From Trichomonas vaginalis G3 (taxonomy: Eukaryota > Parabasalia > Trichomonadida > Trichomonadidae), in the NCBI RefSeq assembly GCF_026262505.1, contig NC_067205.1:17732001-17796000 (forward strand): DNA of 64,000 nt, read 5' to 3'. The notes below the pieces were generated by a model. That model was not told the origin of the DNA and did not search any database. It saw nothing but the letters and a program-made list of their open reading frames with translations. Both the position numbers and the translations under genes were made by a program. Positions 5,251-62,553 of the stretch are shown here, one piece after another (the stretch's first letter is position 1; the number at the start of each line of letters is the position of its first letter).

Positions 5251-5955
5251 TTGAGCGAAATAGTAGCATTTTGTACCGATGGTATATACAGGCGAAACCT
5301 TTCGATACCAAGTCAAACGAAATCGATAATCATTGATAAATCTTGTTCAAAATTAGCTATTAATTCGCTTGAGTTATCATCTCTTGAAGAAGTTAGGCTT
5401 CCTAATACATTAATTGAAATTGAAGACGATGTTTTTATTAATTCTAAAATCAAAAAATTATTTATCCCAAAATCCACCATAATTTTGAATTTTAATAATT
5501 CATTCAACTTTATGCCATACCTTGAAAGAATTGATGTAGATCCTAACAATCCTTGTTATACTTCAAAAGATGGAATCCTTTTTTCCAAAGGCTTTGATCA
5601 GATAATTCATTATCCTATGCATATAACATCTCCCTTATATATAGTTCCTCGTGCTGTTAGATTCATAAATCCTTATTGCTTTTTACAGCATGAATATATC
5701 ACAACTTTAATCTTTCATGACAAAATCCTTGAATTGAGGCAAAATTGTTTTCGGTATTGCCAAAGTCTGAAAATAATAATGATTCCAAATAAGTTTTCAT
5801 TACCAAAGAACTTGACAAATTCATTTATTTATTCAAATTTTCATTTTCCAGAAGACATTGTTTTTTATGATGACATTTCAGAATCATGCACATGCCATCA
5901 AAACATATTTGAATTACCATTTTTAACCATTTTTATAACTACCAGTATCATATGA
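5251..5955 (+). CDS. BspA-type leucine-rich-repeat protein, copy 1 of 5
   Basis: This 234-codon frame carries LRR_5/BspA-type repeats of ~23 residues (for example SLEEVRLPNTLIEIEDDVF then IKKLFIPKS) and ends in a hydrophobic stretch (PFLTIFITTSII) suited to a membrane anchor. Trichomonad BspA-like proteins are surface molecules proposed to act in adhesion. The frame opens at TTG (5251), two codons after an in-frame TAG (5245-5247). Uniquely among the five copies, an ATG at 5221 lies in the same frame, but that TAG closes it after eight codons. The real N-terminus is unknown: a 3' splice site at TTCTTTTAG, a non-AUG start, or a silent cassette are all possible. It is the most diverged of the array in sequence but keeps the same length. 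Confidence 0.7.
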   Translation: MSEIVAFCTDGIYRRNLSIPSQTKSIIIDKSCSKLAINSLELSSLEEVRLPNTLIEIEDDVFINSKIKKLFIPKSTIILNFNNSFNFMPYLERIDVDPNNPCYTSKDGILFSKGFDQIIHYPMHITSPLYIVPRAVRFINPYCFLQHEYITTLIFHDKILELRQNCFRYCQSLKIIMIPNKFSLPKNLTNSFIYSNFHFPEDIVFYDDISESCTCHQNIFELPFLTIFITTSII

Positions 5956-6097
5956 ATAGATTCTCTTGATTTAAAAGTTCATAAAACTTTACAATATGAA
6001 AAAAAATTGACTTTTGGTTTGTATCTCATGTGTAATATACATAGACTTAAAATGATATTTGCATGCATATTTCTATAATTCAATATCGGCTTCTCTT

Positions 6098-6174
6098 AAA
6101 AATTAAGGTTAACTTATATTGTCACTTTTTATTCTTATAATTAATTTCAAATTTGAAACAATTGTTACTAGGAC
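6098..6174 (+). promoter_or_regulatory. Conserved block upstream of BspA-like copy 2 (repeated before copy 4)
   Basis: This block and 8019-8094 share AATTAAGG, GTCACTTTTT, ATTTCAA, GAAACAATT and TTACTAGGACTTGAG in the same order. It contains no ATG that leads into the frame. Its conservation suggests that it is functional (promoter, intron end or 5' leader), or that the duplicated unit began upstream of the coding part. GTCACTTTTT is the reverse complement of the AAAAGTGAC motif seen at other genes. Confidence 0.5.
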
Positions 6175-6879
6175 TTGAGTGAGTTAAGAGTATATTGCAA
6201 AGATGGCGTTTATAGACAGAATACTTCAATATCAAACGAAGTCAAATCAATTATTGTTGATGAATCTTGCACAAAATTAGATATATATGCATTTTATTTA
6301 TCATCATTAGAAAATGTAGCATTACCAAACACACTAATTGAGATGGAAGATGATGTTTTTAAAAATTCTAAAATTGTCAATTTATTTATTCCGAAATCAG
6401 TTACAATATTGTATCAAAATAATCCCTTTAATTATATGCCATATCTTGAACGAATTGATGTTGATCCTAGTAATCCTAAATTTGCATCAAATAACGGAAT
6501 TCTTTTTTCAAAAAACTTTGATCTATTAATTCATTATCCAATGCATATTACATCTCCGTTGTATATTGTTCCTCGCACTGTTAGATATATTAATCCATAT
6601 TCCTTTAATCAACATCAATTTATTGAAACAATAATTTTCCATGATAGAATATTAGAATTAAGAGTTGGCTGTTTTCACAAAACCACCAATCTGAAATCGA
6701 TATTGATTCCTAATAGATTTTCGTTACCAAAGAACTTAGTTGATTCTTTTAAAGATTCAAATTTTACCTTTCCAGATAATGTCACATTTTATTTTGACAT
6801 TCTTGAAACATGTAAATTTATTAGAAATAAATTCGACCTACAGTACATTTCCCTATTTATATCTTTATTGATCTTGTAA
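6175..6879 (+). CDS. BspA-type leucine-rich-repeat protein, copy 2 of 5
   Basis: A 234-codon frame with the same layout as copy 1: an N-terminal ELRVYCKDGVY segment, LRR_5-type repeats (NVALPNTLIEMEDDVF, IVNLFIPKSVT), a central YLERIDVDPSNP region, and a hydrophobic end ISLFISLLIL. It opens at TTG after TAG-GAC, and no upstream ATG is in frame. It is almost identical in DNA to copy 4 (8095-8799) over long blocks, with short divergent patches at codons ~37-52 and after codon ~140, a mosaic that points to gene conversion. The intact frame and identical length argue against simple decay. Confidence 0.7.
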   Translation: MSELRVYCKDGVYRQNTSISNEVKSIIVDESCTKLDIYAFYLSSLENVALPNTLIEMEDDVFKNSKIVNLFIPKSVTILYQNNPFNYMPYLERIDVDPSNPKFASNNGILFSKNFDLLIHYPMHITSPLYIVPRTVRYINPYSFNQHQFIETIIFHDRILELRVGCFHKTTNLKSILIPNRFSLPKNLVDSFKDSNFTFPDNVTFYFDILETCKFIRNKFDLQYISLFISLLIL

Positions 6880-7117
6880 ATAAAAGCTTCAAATCCACAT
6901 TTTTCAAAAAAAAAGTATTTGCGAAGTTCCAAGAAGTCAAATGAAAATGTTAAAATTTTTGATACTTTGAACTGTCATATGAATTGTATGCTTAGAGTTC
7001 CTTTAAAAATTTTTACATTTAGAGATTGAAAATTATGAAATGATGTGAATTTTTTGAAAAAAAAAGTTCATTTTTTTGTTTAAATTTTTCATCACTGTCT
7101 CATTCATTTATTAGAGA

Positions 7118-7822
7118 TTGACCGAATTACGAGTATATTGTAGCGATGGAGTTTATACATTCAATGCATCAATATCAAACCAGTACAAATCAATAATTGT
7201 AGATGAATCTTGTTCAAAATTAGATTCCAATTCACTCCATTTATCATTTCTAGAACATGTTACATTACCAAATACATTAACTGAGATTGGAGATGATTGT
7301 TTCAAAGAATCTCAAATTGTCGAATTAAATATCCCAAAATCAGTAACAAATCTGAACCAGAACAATCAATTTAACTTTATGTCGAAACTTGAGCGAATTA
7401 TTGTTGAAGAAGGAAATCCCAATTATGCATCAAATAACGGAATTCTTTTTTCGAGTAATTTTGATCAATTGCTTCATTATCCAGGCCATATTGTATCTCC
7501 TATTTATGTAGTTCCTCAATCAGTTAGATATATTGGTTCATATGCTTTTTATGCTCATGAATACATTGAAACACTTGTATTTCATGACAAAATTTTAGAA
7601 TTTAGATCCGGAGCTTTCCAATTTTCAACAAAGTTGAAAAATATTAGGATTCCGAGTGAATGCCCGCTACCAAATAATATTGGTGATCCATTTTATCAAT
7701 CAAGTTTTAAATTCCCATATAATGTCACATTTTATGTTGACATCATTCCTACATGCAGAATGATAAAAGATTGTTCTTCTATCCGATTCTATATTTCTTT
7801 CATATTTTTTGCTATGGGATGA
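7118..7822 (+). CDS. BspA-type leucine-rich-repeat protein, copy 3 of 5
   Basis: A 234-codon frame with LRR_5-type repeats such as HVTLPNTLTEIGDDCF and IVELNIPKSVT, a KLERIIVEEGNPNY segment, and a hydrophobic C-terminus (FYISFIFFAMG). It opens at TTG preceded by ATTTATTAG-AGA, so the conserved in-frame TAG is again two codons upstream. It diverges from copies 2 and 4 throughout, so it is an older duplicate. No signal peptide is encoded in the visible frame, although the family is normally surface-exposed, which is consistent with a missing first exon. Confidence 0.68.
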   Translation: MTELRVYCSDGVYTFNASISNQYKSIIVDESCSKLDSNSLHLSFLEHVTLPNTLTEIGDDCFKESQIVELNIPKSVTNLNQNNQFNFMSKLERIIVEEGNPNYASNNGILFSSNFDQLLHYPGHIVSPIYVVPQSVRYIGSYAFYAHEYIETLVFHDKILEFRSGAFQFSTKLKNIRIPSECPLPNNIGDPFYQSSFKFPYNVTFYVDIIPTCRMIKDCSSIRFYISFIFFAMG

Positions 7823-8018
7823 ATAAATTCATAAACCAATTTTCCTACTTAAAGTCTCCCTATAGTTTTTCTGTGTAAATATTGAGTGAATCTCTATCAA
7901 AAATTTAAATTACTAACACATGCACACGATTAATTGAAAATATGTTTTTGAAACTATTATTTAAATAATTATGTATCATTATATTATTCTTCTTTAAAAA
8001 ATTGAGAAGTTTATAATA

Positions 8019-8094
8019 AATTAAGGTTTACTTAATTTCGTCACTTTTTTAGTATTTTATTTTATTTCAATTTCGAAACAATTTTTACTAGGAC
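8019..8094 (+). promoter_or_regulatory. Conserved block upstream of BspA-like copy 4
   Basis: The second instance of the block at 6098-6174, with the same order of short identical segments up to the shared TTACTAGGACTTGAG. The parts between the shared segments have drifted, so the shared segments may be constrained. Confidence 0.5.
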
Positions 8095-8799
8095 TTGAGT
8101 GAGTTAAGAGTATATTGCAAAGATGGCGTTTATAGACAGAATACTTCAATATCAAACGAAGTCAAATCAATTATTGTTGATGAATCTTGCACAAAATTAG
8201 TTGCTTATTCACTTCAATTGCCTTCACTTGAAAACGTAGCATTACCAAACACACTAATTGAGATGGAAGATGATGTTTTTAAAAATTCTAAAATTGTCAA
8301 TTTATTTATTCCGAAATCAGTTACAATATTGTATCAAAATAATCCCTTTAATTATATGCCATATCTTGAACGAATTGATGTTGATCCTAGTAATCCTAAA
8401 TTTGCATCAAATAACGGAATTCTTTTTTCAAAAAACTTTGATCTATTAATTCATTATCCAATGCATATTACATCTCCGTTGTATATTGTTCCTCGCACTG
8501 TTAGATATATCAATCCATATTGTTTTAATCAACATCAATTCATCGAAGGAATAATTTTCCATGGTAGAATATTAGAATTGAGAGATGGATGTTTTCAAAA
8601 TACTACAAATTTGAAATCGATATTGATTCCTAATAGATTTTCATTACCAAAGATCTTAGTTAATTCTTTTCATGATTCAAACTTTACCTTTCCAGATAAT
8701 GTCACATTTTATTCTGACATTCTTGAAACATGCAAATTTATTAGAAATAAATTCGATTTACAATACATTTCTCCATTTATATCATTATTAATATTGTAA
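8095..8799 (+). CDS. BspA-type leucine-rich-repeat protein, copy 4 of 5
   Basis: A 234-codon frame nearly identical to copy 2. The first ~36 codons match base for base, a patch of about 15 codons is replaced (VAYSLQLPSLENV instead of DIYAFYLSSLENV), then ~85 codons match again, and the last third has scattered changes. The opening TTG follows TTACTAG-GAC. The hydrophobic C-terminus is ISPFISLLIL. The alternation of identical and different blocks suggests partial gene conversion between the two copies. Function, as for the family, is probably cell-surface contact. Confidence 0.7.
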   Translation: MSELRVYCKDGVYRQNTSISNEVKSIIVDESCTKLVAYSLQLPSLENVALPNTLIEMEDDVFKNSKIVNLFIPKSVTILYQNNPFNYMPYLERIDVDPSNPKFASNNGILFSKNFDLLIHYPMHITSPLYIVPRTVRYINPYCFNQHQFIEGIIFHGRILELRDGCFQNTTNLKSILIPNRFSLPKILVNSFHDSNFTFPDNVTFYSDILETCKFIRNKFDLQYISPFISLLIL

Positions 8800-8828
8800 A
8801 TAAAAGTTTCACATTTTTATGCATTATA

Positions 8829-9041
8829 TTAAAGGTGCACTTACTCCTTTCTGACATTCTCTCAATTTTTTTGACACACAAGCTTTCTATCCCATTATCC
8901 TAAGGTCAAAAGTTAATATTTTTGAATGAGAGCAATAGAAAGTAGGAGATAGTAAAAATAAATCACTACGCAATACCTAATATGGCTGCTATACTTACCA
9001 CTTTTTCATAGCATGTCAGAAAGTGGTAAGTGCATCCTTAA
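8829..9041. mobile_element. Small inverted-repeat transposon (MITE) between BspA-like copies
   Basis: AAGGTGCACTTACTCCTTTC (8832-8851) and the inverse of GAAAGTGGTAAGTGCATCCT (9019-9038) form imperfect terminal inverted repeats that continue to CTGACAT and ATGTCAG. TTAA flanks both ends, or TA if the ends are read one base further out. The interior has no coding capacity. The AGGATGCAC end resembles the AGGAT ends of the elements at 15616 and 23587, so they may belong to one superfamily. Confidence 0.75.
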
Positions 9042-9405
9042 ATCAATCTGCATTCAGTAGTCAAAAATGAATTTTTTGTTTTATATATTTTTATTGGATT
9101 TGATATATTTTAATGATCAACTCCAAATTTTCTCAAATTTTCAAATTATACGCATGTTCAATTTTGAATAATCTTTTTTAAACGTTTTTTGAACCGATGT
9201 AAACCCCAATACTATCAACTATATTACTTTTTAATTCTCAATTCTCAGTCAAATCCATTCAATCATTGGAAAAACTGACTTTTTCATATGGAAAAACGTA
9301 TGAAATGATGTGACTTTTTATAGTCTCATTTGTAAAGCTTTCAAAATTAATGGTATGAACCCGAGATTATAATAGTGCTATAGATTTTGATTGATTTATT
9401 AGATT
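9042..9405. other. Intergenic region upstream of BspA-like copy 5
   Basis: About 360 AT-rich bases. An ATG at about 9354 leads into only a few codons (ATGAACCCGAG). No conserved block like that before copies 2 and 4 is present. Confidence 0.4.
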
Positions 9406-10110
9406 TTGACTGAATTACGTGTATATTGCAGAAATGGAGTTTATACGCAAGATACATCTATATCAAACAAGGTCAAATCAATAATTGTTGATGAATCTTG
9501 TAAAAAATTAGGTACATATTCACTTGGTTTAACTTTTCTTGAAAATGTAACATTACCAAATACATTAATAGAAATTGAAGATGATGCTTTTCATTCAACA
9601 AAAATCAGTAAAATTTTTATTCCGAAATCAGTTACAATATTGCATCCAAATAATCCTTTTAACTATATGCCATATCTTGAACGAATTGATGTTGATCAGA
9701 AAAATCTAAATTTTGCATCAAATAACGGAATTCTTTTTTCTAAAAATTTTGATCATTTAATCCATTATCCAATGCAAATCAAATCTCCTATATACAAAGC
9801 TCCTCCCACAGTTAGATATATCAATCCTTATGCTTTTCATGCTTACGCATACATTGAAACCATCGTATTTCATGACAAAATATTAGAAATGAGAGAAGGA
9901 TCTTTTTGGAAAACCCAGAAATTGAAAAGAATAATGATTCCATATAATTTTTCACAACCAAAGCTGCTAAAAGATGCATTTTTGGAATCAAGCTTCATTT
10001 TTCCTGATAATGTCATGTTTTATGCTTATATCAAGGAAACATGCATATTTATTAGAGATAGTATTTCCTATCGTTTTGAAATATCTTTAATATTTTTAAT
10101 TATTTCCTGA
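9406..10110 (+). CDS. BspA-type leucine-rich-repeat protein, copy 5 of 5
   Basis: A 234-codon frame with repeats NVTLPNTLIEIEDDAF and ISKIFIPKSVT, the YLERIDVDQKN segment, and a hydrophobic end (ISLIFLIIS). It opens at TTG after TTTATTAG-ATT, so all five copies share TAG-NNN-TTG at the same place although the flanking bases differ. The frame is intact and the length identical to the other four. It is the last of the array and is convergent with the SMC1 gene. Confidence 0.69.
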   Translation: MTELRVYCRNGVYTQDTSISNKVKSIIVDESCKKLGTYSLGLTFLENVTLPNTLIEIEDDAFHSTKISKIFIPKSVTILHPNNPFNYMPYLERIDVDQKNLNFASNNGILFSKNFDHLIHYPMQIKSPIYKAPPTVRYINPYAFHAYAYIETIVFHDKILEMREGSFWKTQKLKRIMIPYNFSQPKLLKDAFLESSFIFPDNVMFYAYIKETCIFIRDSISYRFEISLIFLIIS

Positions 10111-30865: not shown

Positions 30866-31770
30866 TTATTTCAAAACAAGAGATTGCGAAGAATCTGAAG
30901 GAGATTTCAACAATCTAAGTCTACTAGCCCCATTTTTATGAGGTAATATTTGGCTTTGAAGTCTATATGTTGACTTTCTTAAAGAATAAAGAGGTGATAT
31001 TATTTCATTATTTGAATAAAACTTGGAAATGCCATGTTGGTTGCTAATTTGGCACAAATTATCATGAACAACATCAGTCGATTTAAAGTATGGCATCTCC
31101 AAGTCTGTCTTTTGGCTCTATCCTCAAGCATCTTGCAATAACATCACGAAGAAGTTTATCTTTAATAAGAGAGCCATCATATTTAGCTAGTGAAATTAAT
31201 TGAACTAATTCTCTCGGATCAACAACAAAAAATGGATATCTTCCTGTGGCAATAAAATACAATGTACATCCAAGTGCCCAAATATCAGCTGCCATCGCAT
31301 CATAGCCATTTTGCTCATAAATTTCTGGTGCCATCATTATTTTTGTTCCTGAATAGATATTTCTAACATGTGAATCCTTAAATATTGTTGCTAGACCAAA
31401 ATCTCCGATTTTCAATCTTCCATATTCATCTGTCATAAAATTTGCTGGTTTTATATCGCAATGAGCTATGTTCATATCATGACATGCTTTGATGCAAAGG
31501 ACAGCTTCACGGCAATACTTCTTTATTTCTGCTGGCTGCATGTTTCTGTTGGATAGTACAATTCTTTCTAAATCAAATGGACAATATTCCATTAAAAGTG
31601 TTTTGTACCGAAATGGCTAACAAAAAAGTGACAGAAAACCTTAAATTGCGCGGCAATTTTAATTAAAAAAATAAACATTAATTTTTGTGATTGATATTAT
31701 GCATTTTATTTATATTATATAAGATTTAAATATAGGGGAAAAATTGGAAAAAAAATAAGATTGGAAGTCT

Positions 31771-32013
31771 TTAGGTAAGAAGGAAAGGGCAAGAGATATA
31801 TAGTGTACCTATATACCTCTTGCCCTTTCATTCTAAGTAGAAATGGGAGAAACTTTGTCCGCATCATAAGTTATGGGACAAAGTTTCTCCGATTTCTAAT
31901 GGGAATTGCAGGCTATGAGGCACTGATATATAATCAGTACCTCATAGCCTACAATTCCCCTTATTAGACTTCCAAACTTTGAGTTAATCTCTTGACATTA
32001 ACTCAAAGTTTGG
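31771..32013. repeat. Array of four long hairpins
   Basis: Four hairpins follow one another: H1 31783-31829 (GAAAGGGCAAGAG arms), H2 31838-31898 (GGGAGAAACTTTGTCC arms extended by TAGAAAT), H3 31901-31959 (GGGAATTG plus AGGCTATGAGG arms), H4 31972-32013 (CCAAACTTTGAGTTAAT arms, perfect). TTGGAAGTCT (31771) and AGACTTCCAA (31967) form an outer stem around H1-H3, so the strand can fold as a multi-branched cloverleaf. H3 and the H2 loop share sequence with the array at 58769-59081. Confidence 0.93.
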
Positions 32014-32207
32014 AAAACTTCTCGTAAGAATCAATCGTCAAAAACCTCGATTGCAGTTATATTCATTGTGTTAAATTTGATTTATTTTGAAATTTTTATA
32101 AATTAAATTTATATAACATAAAGCGTTATGAATTAGCATTTCCATATGAATTTTATCTCGAAAATAGTAATTCTGTACAGTTATATTTCGGTTAATTTTG
32201 GAAATTT

Positions 32208-32366
32208 CTAGGAATACTTTAAGATAGTATGATTATATATAACTCTGCCTTCATGATTTATTTTAGCTTTCGCGCAAATATCAGTTAACTTAACTCCATT
32301 ATTTGATTTTGTGATGGCTTCACAAAGCCAATCAATATCAATCTCTTCTGGAGAATGTCTTCTCAT
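32208..32366 (-). CDS. 52-residue unknown protein inside the kinase-disrupting element
   Basis: It starts MRRHSPEEIDIDWLCEAI and continues with NGVKLTDICAKAKINH, a charge and spacing pattern compatible with a small helix-turn-helix. The codon use looks protein-like compared with the surrounding non-coding DNA. It may be the remains of a transposase N-terminus. No family is recognised. Confidence 0.4.
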   Translation of the reverse strand: MRRHSPEEIDIDWLCEAITKSNNGVKLTDICAKAKINHEGRVIYNHTILKYS

Positions 32367-32904
32367 CTAGAATATTTTCAATACTTTACATACAAACATT
32401 TTTATTTCTAAAAAACTTTTTAATTTTTTCTAGGATATCTGAATGAAAATAGTTAGAACAAGATTTTGAAGCTCAAAACATTAAAAATTATTAAAGATTT
32501 GTATAATATGATTAAAAATGGGAAATAATATGAGGCAATATAAAGGAATATGAATATTAAATAAATATATCTAAATAGAAAGAATCAGAAAAATCAAATT
32601 ATTGGCGCCAAAAATGTCACCTTTTTGGTGAGCCATTTCGGTATGAGATAAATATTCCATTAAAAGATATTCGTTACCTTTGAAATTATATGTTTTATAC
32701 AATCTAACTATTCTTACATTGCATTGATGTCAAGCACTCGAGTTCTGAATCATGGAAATACTTTTCTCTGATCTTTTTATTTACAAATTTCTTTTTATAA
32801 ACATCTGAGTAAACGCAAAAAAGAATGCCAAAGGTACCCTGCCCTAAATAATGTAGAAAACGATATCCATCCTTCTTGAATAGTTCCTGTTCTTGTGTTT
32901 CCAT

Positions 32905-58401: not shown

Positions 58402-59507
58402 TGCAAATTACCTCAGACTTTTCAGAGGATTGAGTTGCCACTCACTCCTCTGAAATAGTCTGTGGTAATTTTTAGTCTCTACACTATTTCAATATAAGCT
58501 CCATTTTTAAACAGTTTTTAAAAATGGAGCATTGAAAAGTGTGATGAGACTGTTGCATGCTAAGATCAGTCATAATGTAAACCTCTCAATTTTATTGTCG
58601 TGGGAAGTATCTCAATTCCTTCAAAAAAATTGAAAAACTATTTAATTTTAAAAATATAATACTTTTAATTAGTTAATTAATTGGAGATATTTTTTAAAAA
58701 ATCACTTTTGATAATACTTTTGAGAACTTTAATTAAAAAAATATATTCAAAAATATCCAGGATATCAAGAGGGAATTGTTCCTTATGAGGTATATAGTTA
58801 TGATGTATACCTCATAAGGAACAATTCCCTCCTTAAAACGAGAAAACTTGTTCGAAATTGTTTATCATTTCGAACAAGTTTTCTCGTTTTTAATAAGAAA
58901 CTAAAGGCTATGAGGCACTGATTATATATTAGTGCCTCACAGCCTTTAGTTTCTAATAGATAGCTGGGAAACTTTCTCCAAATGATAAGTTATTCAGAGA
59001 AAGTTTCCCAGCTATCAAGAGGGAATTGTTCCTTATGAGGTATATAGTTATGATGTATACCTCATACGGAACAATTCCCTCCTTTAAAATCGTAGACATT
59101 TTTATACTTATTAATCAACCATTCAAAATCATATTCCTCTGAAAAGTTATTTTATTAAAAATTTAGAATTTTAATAAATATAGAGTTTGAATTTCATACA
59201 ATACCTATATATTTTCAATAATGGAATTTGAAAACCATTCTCAAAAGTTCTCAGAAAACCTTTTTTTTCATTAATTTTAAGAAATCTGAGTATTAAATTA
59301 AGTGATAAATTCGTTTGACACTACTTTAATTTTTAAATTCAAAAAATTATATGTGCTTCTTAAAATGACTCAAAAAATTTTATTATAAAATAATATATAA
59401 TATTAAAAATCCCACAACATTTTTTACTTTACATAATCGTACTTCCTCGACGATTAATTTACACTCAATTTCTATCGTTGACCGAACTTAGCATGCAACA
59501 AGACTTC
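58402..59507. mobile_element. Insertion inside copy B carrying hairpins
   Basis: The boundaries are defined by the break in homology with copy A (AAATTT to the left, CTTTTTTCC to the right). The left end folds as two hairpins: ATTACC/GGTAAT arms from about 58407 to 58472, and GCTCCATTTTTAAA arms from about 58476 to 58550. Then come 21-base inverted ends starting GTTGCATGCTAAG (58552) and ending CTTAGCATGCAAC (59499), matching at 19 of 21. Inside is the five-hairpin array. No gene is present. Either the hairpin pair belongs to the element's left end, or two events are stacked. Confidence 0.8.
58769..59081. repeat. Array of five long hairpins
   Basis: K1 58769-58831 (26-base perfect arms starting GAGGGAATTGTTCC), K2 58835-58890 (24-base perfect arms starting AAAACGAGAAAACTTG), K3 58896-58954 (AGAAACTAAAGGCT arms, one mismatch), K4 58959-59016 (GATAGCTGGGAAACTTTCTC arms, perfect), and K5 59019-59081, a copy of K1 with one change. 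K3 shares GGCTATGAGGCACTGAT with H3 of the array at 31771, and K4 shares its TGATAAGTTAT-like loop with H2. Confidence 0.95.
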
Positions 59508-60635: not shown

Positions 60636-62553
60636 ATGCCACGTAAGCTACGTAAGAATATACGTAAGAGGAAGGGAGCATTGAAACATCCAATAGTAAA
60701 ACTGACACCACAACAACAGTTGCAACAACAAATGATGAATGACCCCACTATGTTGCAACAAATGTCAAGCAACCCTATGCTTTTAAACCGAGTTATTGGT
60801 GCACAGAGTGGAGGTTTAAGAGCGGCACTTTTAGCGAAAATGGCAGGCTATGGTGGAGCTGCAGACGGAACAGCCTATAACCCTCAAAGTCAAATGAATT
60901 TGAGTTCACTCAAAAATCAAATAACAGATGTCAAAAAGTCAAACATAGACATACAGAAGCAAATAAGTGAAAACGAAAAGAAACTAGAATATGACAGACA
61001 CACAAAGAAACTCAATGAGTTAAACGTAGAGAAAAAGAAAAGAAGAACAACTGAAAGAACTAAGTACAGAGGAATATGCGAAAAAAGTGTCAGAAAAAGC
61101 AGCAGAAGTAGCAAAAATGGAACAAGATGTTATAAATTTGAAAAACCATACTACTCAATATAAAGTACTGAAAGATGAAGAGATAAAACAAAAAGCCGTG
61201 AAGACATATATGGATAGCGATGAGTATAAAAAAGAAGTTGAAGCAAATGTAAAGGCAGAAAAACTTTTACAGTTGCAAAACCAAACCGTACAGTATGAAA
61301 ACTTAGCACAAGAAAGTAAAAATAACGACGCAGCCATGCAAAAGGCAATGAAAAGCGCAGAATATATAAAAGCTAATAATGACTGGTTAGATGCCCAAGC
61401 CAACGCTAAAGCAGCCCAACTTATAGGGTCAATAAGGACAAAAATACAAGCGGATGAAGACAGTTCAAATGAAGCTTTAATGAATGCTGACTTTAAGAAC
61501 GCCTTCGAAGCTCTTCATAGTAAGGTGAAACTAGTGAACGACTTCTCATCTGGAAAGAAACTGAAGTCTGAAGGTTTCGACAACGAGTTAAGAGAAGTAG
61601 CACAAAATATGACGAAAATAACAGATGCAGCAACGAGACAGGCAGTTCAAAGTGCCTATGACGCCGTTAGAGCGACTGTTGTGGAAAGTCAAGAAAAAGA
61701 GTTACAACAGACCAAAACAGACCTAGTAAATGCTTTCTTAAGAACGAAAAGTCAGGTAGGACATTATGCTGCAGATGGAACATATGTGCCAGCTGGTGGA
61801 ACTTATATACCAGCTGGTGGAACTTATATACTAGCTAGTGGAACTTATATACCACCAAACCCTCCAAGAGAAGCACCTGCACCAGGACTACCTAAAACAT
61901 TTACATCGTCACATGGACACAGACACAGGCATGCACCACAACAACAACCAAAACCAACAGTTCAAAACACTGCACCACAACCAACAGTTCAAAACACTGC
62001 ACCACAACCAACAGTTCAAAACACTGCACCACAACCACCTCCACAACCAGCACAGCAACAACCACAAACAGAGCAAGGACATAAAAGAAGTAGAGAACAA
62101 GGAAACCAAGAATTCTTAAAAATGCTTAAGGAAAATTATGGTTACCCAGATACTCTTGACTTTAGTGACAGATATAAAGAAGCTATTAGAAAGTTCAAGG
62201 AAGGAAATACTGACCCGAACCTATTTAGCTTTATGGTTCAGCACCAAATGGGATATAATTTCAAACCTGGAAAATACAAGCTCGCTAAGGGATATGATTT
62301 AATAGCATATCATCCAAATGACATGACTGAATTTACTCCGAGATATTTGGTGTCAGAGATAAATGATAATTCAACTATCTTCATGAAACGCGTAAAAAAT
62401 AGAGACGGAACGAAAGAAGAAAGGGTTATGAATGCGGATGGCTTAAATAGGAACTTGTTAAAAACGGTCTCGGAATATATGAAATGCCAGCAGATGAGGT
62501 ACAAGAAACTCCACAGGAAGAAGTTCAGATACAACCAGACATGGAAGAAATAG
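60636..62553 (+). pseudogene. Virus-like coiled-coil, Pro/Gln-rich protein, frameshifted
   Basis: The first segment from the ATG at 60636 (MPRKLRKNIRKRKGALK, basic) leads into a Gln/Met-rich stretch and a coiled coil, stopping at 61163. At about 61035, in an A-rich run, the coiled coil jumps to the frame that continues to 62553. The second part has four GGTYIPA-like repeats (61770-61855), three PTVQNTAPQ repeats (61957-62030) and a folded C-terminal region. Basic N-terminus, coiled coil and Pro/Gln repeats would suit a virion or inclusion protein; I do not recognise the family. The base composition is visibly less AT-rich than the host genes. Confidence 0.6.

Follow-up and report, generated by a model that had tools for sequence, protein, structure and literature searches.

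Arrays of alternating hairpins as a common internal component of several IS481EU-type DNA transposons in Trichomonas vaginalis

The window, by which we mean the whole 64,000-nucleotide stretch of the Trichomonas vaginalis G3 genome that was analysed (contig NC_067205.1, positions 17,732,001 to 17,796,000 of the forward strand), contains two hairpin arrays, five hairpins standing back to back in an element referred to here as E2 and four in a second element, E1. A scan of all 64 kb for hairpins scoring ≥17 returned exactly nine, all within the E1 and E2 arrays, against 0, 0, 0, 0 and 0 in five Markov-resampled windows. The features, in window coordinates, are as follows.

31583..31598, no strand: left TSD of E1, 16 bp, AATATTCCATTAAAAG
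31599..32650, plus strand: E1, 1052 bp, ends TGTTTYGTACCGAAATGG.. and TATCTCATACCGAAATGG..
31778..31834, no strand: hairpin H1, type A
31838..31898, no strand: hairpin H2, type B, core one base short of the 38-base form of other copies
31897..31963, no strand: hairpin H3, type A, with GGCTATGAGGCACTGAT in common with K3
31970..32015, no strand: hairpin H4, type B
32651..32666, no strand: right TSD of E1, 16 bp
58547..58550, no strand: left TSD of E2, 4 bp, AGAC
58551..59500, plus strand: E2, 950-bp non-autonomous IS481EU-type transposon, recognised by its copies, TIRs, TSD and relative E2A
58551..58572 and 59479..59500: TIRs of E2, beginning TGTTGCATGCTAAG
58769..58831, no strand: hairpin K1, type A, arms 26, loop 11, centre 58800
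58835..58890, no strand: hairpin K2, type B, arms 24, loop 8, centre 58862.5
58896..58954, no strand: hairpin K3, type A, arms 27, loop 5, centre 58925, contains GGCTATGAGGCACTGAT
58959..59016, no strand: hairpin K4, type B, arms 25, loop 8, centre 58987.5
59019..59081, no strand: hairpin K5, type A, a duplicate of K1 250 bp away, one base different
59501..59504, no strand: right TSD of E2, 4 bp, AGAC

The two hairpin types were assigned by eye from hairpin listings and alignments: type A has a loop-proximal TGAGGYA consensus and an odd loop length, whereas type B is marked by AAACTTT halfway along the stem, most of its rows having a loop of 8 bases. A preliminary description of this DNA had reported the five-hairpin array at 58769–59081, the duplication of K1 as K5, a segment common to K3 and H3 and a loop core common to K4 and H2. 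All of these were recovered, with K1 to K5 each located, a single mismatch between K1 and K5 (at 59067), GGCTATGAGGCACTGAT in both K3 and H3, and ATAAGTTAT in K4 and H2 between AAACTTT-type arms. It also placed the two arrays in different elements with different ends, and E2 and E1 do differ in both their ends and their TSD lengths. To this we add three features, that types A and B alternate in adjacent hairpins, that their centres are regularly spaced at 62.5 bp, and that the four-hairpin unit of 250 bp is tandemly repeated elsewhere in the genome.

Further repeats and genes lie around the two elements. Just left of E2, outside the array, are inverted repeats with arms at 58420–58435/58440–58455 and 58498–58511/58517–58530, and E2 may have inserted into a second short palindromic element represented by these repeats at 58417–58530. 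E1 is adjoined by a minus-strand frame at 31083–31592 (in the region 31083–32700), the insertion lying at the start of the frame, which we take by motif to resemble a protein kinase. Elsewhere in the window, five consecutive plus-strand frames of exactly 234 aa each form a tandem gene or repeat array at 5251–10110, and a DUF4106 gene, of a family typical of Trichomonas, is found at 61087–62553.

Neither E1 nor E2 contains an ORF of ≥100 aa in the ORF list. E2 has the characteristics of a MITE, being 950 bp long and non-coding, with TIRs, a TSD, at least 40 near-identical copies and an autonomous partner, E2A. The copies share 99–100% identity over their full or nearly full length, and their number is a lower bound from 40 of 809 candidates scored. 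In 30 copies the TSD was an exact 4 bp in 25 and 5 bp in one, with no flush repeat in four, and the 4-bp sequences were varied (ctat, ttat, gttt and agac among them). The copy in the window is young, because only two sites differ from the majority of copies, and E2 copies are also found nested in E1 copies (L032; L002/L048). The relative E2A (C2:12147811–12150028, 2218 bp, TSD acat) has the same TIRs as E2 and carries an open frame of 357 codons (324 from Met) followed by seven hairpins, the one frame >120 codons within the element on the transposase strand, which is the strand that was listed. The plus strand of E2 corresponds to this transposase-sense strand.

In E1, exact TSDs were of 15 bp in 15 of 32 end combinations, 16 bp in nine, 17 bp in two and 14 bp in one; the remaining combinations gave 12 bp in one, 4 bp in two and no TSD in two, these last pairing ends from different copies. 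The sample includes one copy twice (L002 = L048) and three places with flanks in common (L034, L038 and L039). No larger partner of E1 was found among the first 100 of 204 TIR places.

Three further hosts have resolved ends. E3 (C1:19693670–19698813, 5144 bp, TSD taag) has TIRs related to those of E2 and a 279-codon rve frame (counted from stop to stop) followed by the array, the next longest frame being of 108 codons and inside the array; other copies of its transposase have frames of up to 355 codons. E4 (C1:657296–659307) has E2-like ends, a right part 91% identical to E2 and a longer, partly decayed array. E5 (C1:5021104–5023566, 2463 bp, TSD gcat) has ends resembling those of E1: of the four ends that these two elements have between them, three carry AAAAAGTGACA and one carries AAAAAGGTGACA. 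It is adjoined by a minisatellite of TACTGACAGTAGCAGTACTTTT units (L104, about 560–870). The resolved ends form two groups, E2/E3 and E1/E5, with ends related within each. Further arrays lie at L086 and L087, and L105 (C1:5869100–5870000) combines long inverted ends (CGCTTATATAAAAGGAGACTCTC...) with seven regularly spaced hairpins in an A/B array. At L085 the hairpins start ~2.3 kb beyond a same-strand transposase frame which is 54% identical to the E3 transposase. At L084, beside an rve transposase of 42% identity, there were no hairpins in the 1.9 kb examined, of which ~1.36 kb lies beyond the frame, so that not every related family can be said to carry an array of this kind. At least 39 transposase relatives listed at 42% identity, with one identical score, lie at C4:8280130–8596348 and C4:20780227–20878978, many of them ~8.7–9.1 kb apart and one inside a 2162-aa open frame.

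The passages of Kojima and Bao 2023 (PMC10045372) drawn on here describe the IS481EU superfamily by an IS481-like DDD/E transposase, ends TNT..AYA, short TIRs and TSDs of roughly 4, 15 or 25 bp, which can differ inside a single family, and report autonomous and non-autonomous families in T. vaginalis and other parabasalids. The hosts described above resemble this superfamily in transposase, ends, TIRs and TSDs of 4 and 15–16 bp. The best NCBIfam model for both transposase frames was IS481 (E-values 1.6e-27 and 3.8e-24), at scores (96.8 and 85.7 bits) far below the curated cut-off of 224, and Pfam rva_4, rve and rve_3 were found above cut-off on the E2A and E3 frames, rve_3 and rve of E3 coming from a separate search. 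The ends are TGT..ACA in E2, E2A, E3 and E4, TGT..ATA in E1 and TAT..ACA in E5, all of the form TNT..AYA. TSD lengths were discrete, mostly 4 bp in E2 and mostly 15–16 bp in E1, with 4 bp in single copies of E3, E2A and E5, whilst no TSD of ~25 bp was seen in copies of E1, E2, E2A, E3 or E5. The pairing of E1 (mostly 15–16 bp) with E5 (4 bp, one copy), which has related ends, repeats the mixed TSD lengths of IS481EU.

Judged from these sequence features, the hosts with resolved ends fit the IS481EU superfamily, the probable assignment of E1 being by ends and TSDs only. Unrelated host transposons, the setting proposed in the preliminary description, are ruled out where ends are resolved, since these fit IS481EU. 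Its suggestion of an undescribed mobile element family is likewise not supported, the hosts fitting a published superfamily (PMC10045372), and it is the array itself that appears undescribed. Two other assignments were considered. Ginger1, for which a target preference of CCGG/CCGT is given in the part of PMC2836005 consulted, was rejected on target site, the 4-bp TSDs of E2 being varied. A Maverick origin was not supported, the resolved elements being of 0.95–5.1 kb with TSDs of 4 bp or mostly 15–16 bp.

The hairpin modules are widespread in the 180.85-Mb assembly that was searched. The 17-mer GGCTATGAGGCACTGAT was found at 473 places (233 + 240) and its reversed control at none, a palindromic type-A core at 141 places against 0 in the control, and the type-B core, defined by exactly 24 bases separating AAACTTT and AAAGTTT, at 2683 against 51. 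The further genome copies on which the preliminary proposal depended are thus present, both as GGCTATGAGGCACTGAT places and as type-B cores. A looser B pattern (18–34 bases; 4847 against 1567) was set aside, as it caught another repeat family. This other common repeat, AAACTTT..ATGTCCTATGTATTTGTCAATGACGGC..AAAGTTT, e.g. at C1:41354–41396, was frequent among the looser-B matches listed. Outside T. vaginalis, the type-A pattern was found in 0 stretches of viral contigs, the type-B pattern occurred once per stretch in 2 viral and 12 prokaryotic stretches, which was taken as chance, and phage records held no near match to E2.

The geometry of the arrays is close to constant. In ten stretches, 46 of 53 neighbouring pairs (centres <70 bp apart) had a centre-to-centre spacing of exactly 62.5 bp, the other seven being 57.5, 60.5, 61.5 (two), 62.0 (two) and 67.5, in a sample which includes L079 and E3, copies of one family. 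By arithmetic (62.5/10.4–10.5) this is about six turns of B-DNA. The array lies 3′ of the transposase frame in E2A and E3, the two transposase-bearing elements with resolved ends, and the distance from its last hairpin centre to the right end is 450 bp in both E2 and E4, 451 bp in E2A and 453 bp in E3.

Constant spacing could also arise from tandem duplication alone, and one explanation of the arrays is non-adaptive: a passenger satellite would grow by tandem duplication of 125/250 bp, template switching (quasipalindrome correction) and gene conversion would keep its arms complementary, and active transposons would spread it. The tandem 250-bp units are in keeping with such growth, K3 modules being present twice in L073, twice in L079 and six times in L080, and eight B cores following at ~250-bp steps in C1:5021467–5023249. 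The persistence of the A/B cores and of their exact spacing, despite a mean column identity of the hairpins of only 73% (A) and 71% (B), is harder to reconcile with it. We return to this explanation with the evidence on pairing below, on the whole of which we consider it quite unlikely.

Comparison between hosts shows the array to behave differently from the sequence around it. The arrays of E2 and E3 are ~91% identical over 333–339 bp on opposite strands for four E3 units (blastn). Two other placements gave 87.9% (363 bp) and 82.8% (244 bp), and same-strand matches reach only 64–78%. The terminal and right-flank pieces of the same two elements match on the same strand at 61–73%, and short flank pieces of 66 and 118 bp on the opposite strand at 74% and 62%. 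The module order K1 K2 K3 K4 of E2 is reversed in E3, which confirms an inversion of the array, and the transposases of the E2A and E3 families are ~53% identical compared with ~91% for the arrays. Either exchange with inversion or unusual conservation of the array is needed for this pattern, and the difference in identity could also reflect conversion, as the satellite explanation would have it. Between E1 and E2–E4 (blastn, E-value 1e-3) only the array and ~20 bp beside it match. The full-length alignment which would unite them as parts of one ancestral transposon, raised as a check in the preliminary description, was not found; common descent of the array within IS481EU and its exchange between IS481EU families are thus both possible.

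The same description had proposed hairpins shuffled as modules between unrelated transposons. Its modular part stands, given the different ends, the many copies, the inversion in E3 and the 250-bp repeats; its unrelated hosts do not, as resolved ends, TSDs and the IS481-type transposases of E2A and E3 all fit IS481EU. An array that is itself mobile, inserting into transposons or recombining between them as an independent cassette, would account for its presence in four types of element whose ends are resolved and differ (E1; E2/E2A/E4; E3; E5) and in the further contexts L085, L086, L087 and L105, for the array of E3 being turned round, with respect to its flanks, compared with that of E2, and for E1 having little but the array in common with E2–E4. 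We nevertheless consider it very unlikely: the contexts read, which make up a small share of the total, included no array standing alone between ends or TSDs of its own; the distance of the last centre from the right end is held within 450–453 bp in E2, E4, E2A and E3; and the ends form two related groups in hosts that look like one superfamily.

Pairing of the arms is maintained across the aligned hairpins. In 27 type A hairpins 92.9% of 648 cells were paired, compared with 71.6% when shuffled, and in 18 type B hairpins 94.9% of 414 cells, compared with 69.9%; slid registers gave pairing of only 26–52%. Changes on both sides were found at 21 of 24 pairs in A and 18 of 23 in B, and the observed covariation score was reached by none of 500 shuffles for either type, although one of five measures for the A hairpins (further pair types) was reached by two of 500 shuffles, the others by none. 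The alignments hold 27 of 28 A rows and 18 of 19 B rows, leaving out H2, whose row is one base short and whose centre placed it among the A rows, and an E4 hairpin that carries a deletion (4984.5, B). Covariation is somewhat favoured in this set, as the rows came mostly from a palindrome scan, with some gaps filled by spacing, and many are related. A check by pattern only gave a similar picture: in 13 distinct B 38-mers, among the matches listed for AAACTTT/AAAGTTT alone and so with inner arms unselected for pairing, 97 of 104 inner-arm cells were paired compared with 15 of 52 in the loops. Changes that match across a pair suggest that the folded shape matters to the elements. The hairpins showed no similarity to the TIRs, for which 42 to 273 of 300 shuffles matched the score (six ends), so they are not simply further end-sites of the transposase.

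In young copies the stems are being broken. Across the 30 young E2 copies there were 17 single changes away from a Watson-Crick pair, three of these to G-T, two restoring changes and no double change, counted as cells, so that one inherited change may count several times. Pairing across families is therefore not automatic, and at that age the correction on which a passenger satellite would rely is not visible. Diversity in young copies was not lower in the array than in the flanks, at 0.0067 in the E2 array (flanks 0.0032 and 0.0054) and 0.0096 in that of E1 (flanks 0.0100 and 0.0033), and this absence of any reduction agrees with non-adaptive growth. Pairing which decays in fresh copies yet persists between families is as expected under selection in lineages that are still transposing, but slow conversion could mimic selected pairing.

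Short derivatives of E1 bear on the same question. The H3 module, scored by the GGCTATGAGGCACTGAT 17-mer or the palindromic A core in copies with both ends listed and within the range covered by the A-core matches, is held by 21 of 23 E1 copies, including all three short ones of 616–674 bp, and is not exact in the other two. Retention in the short copies counts against a passenger and, the copies having common ancestry, is no more than suggestive of a role in cis; array retention in derivatives could be simple descent, as the copies are non-independent.

The hairpins might instead act as RNA. Transcribed hairpins of ~25 bp would then give rise to small RNAs (miRNA- or siRNA-like, or part of a 34-nt piRNA-like pool) acting in trans on transposons or host genes, or would be bound by proteins as RNA hairpins. 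RNA folding of 58765–59085 is very strong, with an MFE of −204.8 kcal/mol compared with a mean of −63.9 in 100 shuffles (z −25.5); in the MFE fold a single long outer stem joins K1 to K5, and each of K2, K3 and K4 folds into a hairpin by itself. The uniform geometry of the hairpins and the compensatory changes in their arms also agree with an RNA role, and the parasite possesses a Dicer orthologue, two Argonautes of PIWI-like type and small RNAs that map over TEs, as given in the portion of PMC7845603 drawn on here. The modal small RNA of 34 nt, read by those authors as piRNA-like in the same portion (PMC7845603), is however longer than the arms. Over nine arrays (1194 cells) the mismatches were 32 G-T and 37 A-C, strand-symmetric overall, which also agrees with the satellite explanation, and this absence of wobble bias counts against RNA because selection on a one-strand RNA should tolerate G-U more. 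One-sided wobble-type mismatches occurred in E1 (0 vs 4) and L086 (0 vs 3), cells too few to weigh. Rfam gave 0 matches at gathering score in the window, the arrays of E2 and E3 are in opposite orientation, and elements without a transposase keep the array, for which an RNA acting in trans would have no need. We regard an RNA function as unlikely. The symmetric mismatches, the occurrence of both orientations and the spacing of 62.5 bp, about six turns, lean towards DNA over a one-strand RNA.

Several IS481EU-type DNA transposons of T. vaginalis have the array in common as an internal component. As to its function, our preferred reading, held at somewhat less than even confidence and drawn from sequence comparison, is that the folded arms are selected in lineages still transposing and that the array would act in cis, as DNA. 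With about six helical turns between them, the palindromes would hence lie on one face of the DNA, where they may extrude, or the transposase or a host factor may recognise them as hairpins, and the array may organise the right subterminal region for synapsis or raise transposition. A stronger form of this reading is rather doubtful at present: the two-letter, helically phased A/B array, repeating every six turns, might be a portable cis-acting module of several IS481EU families, inverted and expanded among them, selected for DNA folding rather than for sequence, and might constitute a new kind of transposition control region.

Several known systems have parts of this organisation. Subterminal regions of CACTA (En/Spm) and hAT transposons carry short protein-binding motifs repeated near the ends, partly as inverted pairs, which act in cis, whereas here whole arms of ~25 bp covary, two hairpin types alternate and there is no resemblance to the TIRs. 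MITE-derived hairpins and microRNA clusters are non-autonomous and high-copy, with near-perfect hairpins of precursor-like size; the arrays described here differ in being regular and many-hairpin, with two alternating cores, and common across families. Bacterial REP/BIME sequences are clustered, alternating palindromes linked to a transposase, with REP units of ~20–40 nt lying outside the transposase gene unit and linked to RAYT enzymes, whereas the present array is internal to a eukaryotic DDE transposon. Prokaryotic IS481 resembles the hosts in supplying the best NCBIfam model for both frames, and differs in that the scores are far below the curated cut-off; we know of no hairpin array in prokaryotic IS481.

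The novel part appears to be the array, not the element superfamily. In the main text of PMC10045372 the terms hairpin, palindrome and tandem repeat do not occur, and its abstract, its discussion and the passages drawn on here do not mention a periodic hairpin array. Listed titles and abstract openings of the literature on T. vaginalis transposons, hairpins, tandem repeats, microRNAs and IS481EU gave no description of such an array, no paper was found on cruciform arrays in transposons generally, and the sections of PMC6431247 and PMC12859917 covered hold nothing on such arrays.

An internal, periodic, covarying array adds a third component to IS481EU, beyond the ends with their TSDs and the transposase, and provides a signature for finding IS481EU elements. 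Kojima and Bao, in the passages cited, observe that the classes of TSD length differ by roughly one helical turn and leave the origin of the longer ones unexplained (PMC10045372), and an array close to the right end, with a phase of about six turns, gives this question a concrete object. If their products are small RNAs instead, the arrays would feed the parasite's small-RNA pool. The array also offers a testable case of selected folding within a eukaryotic transposon.
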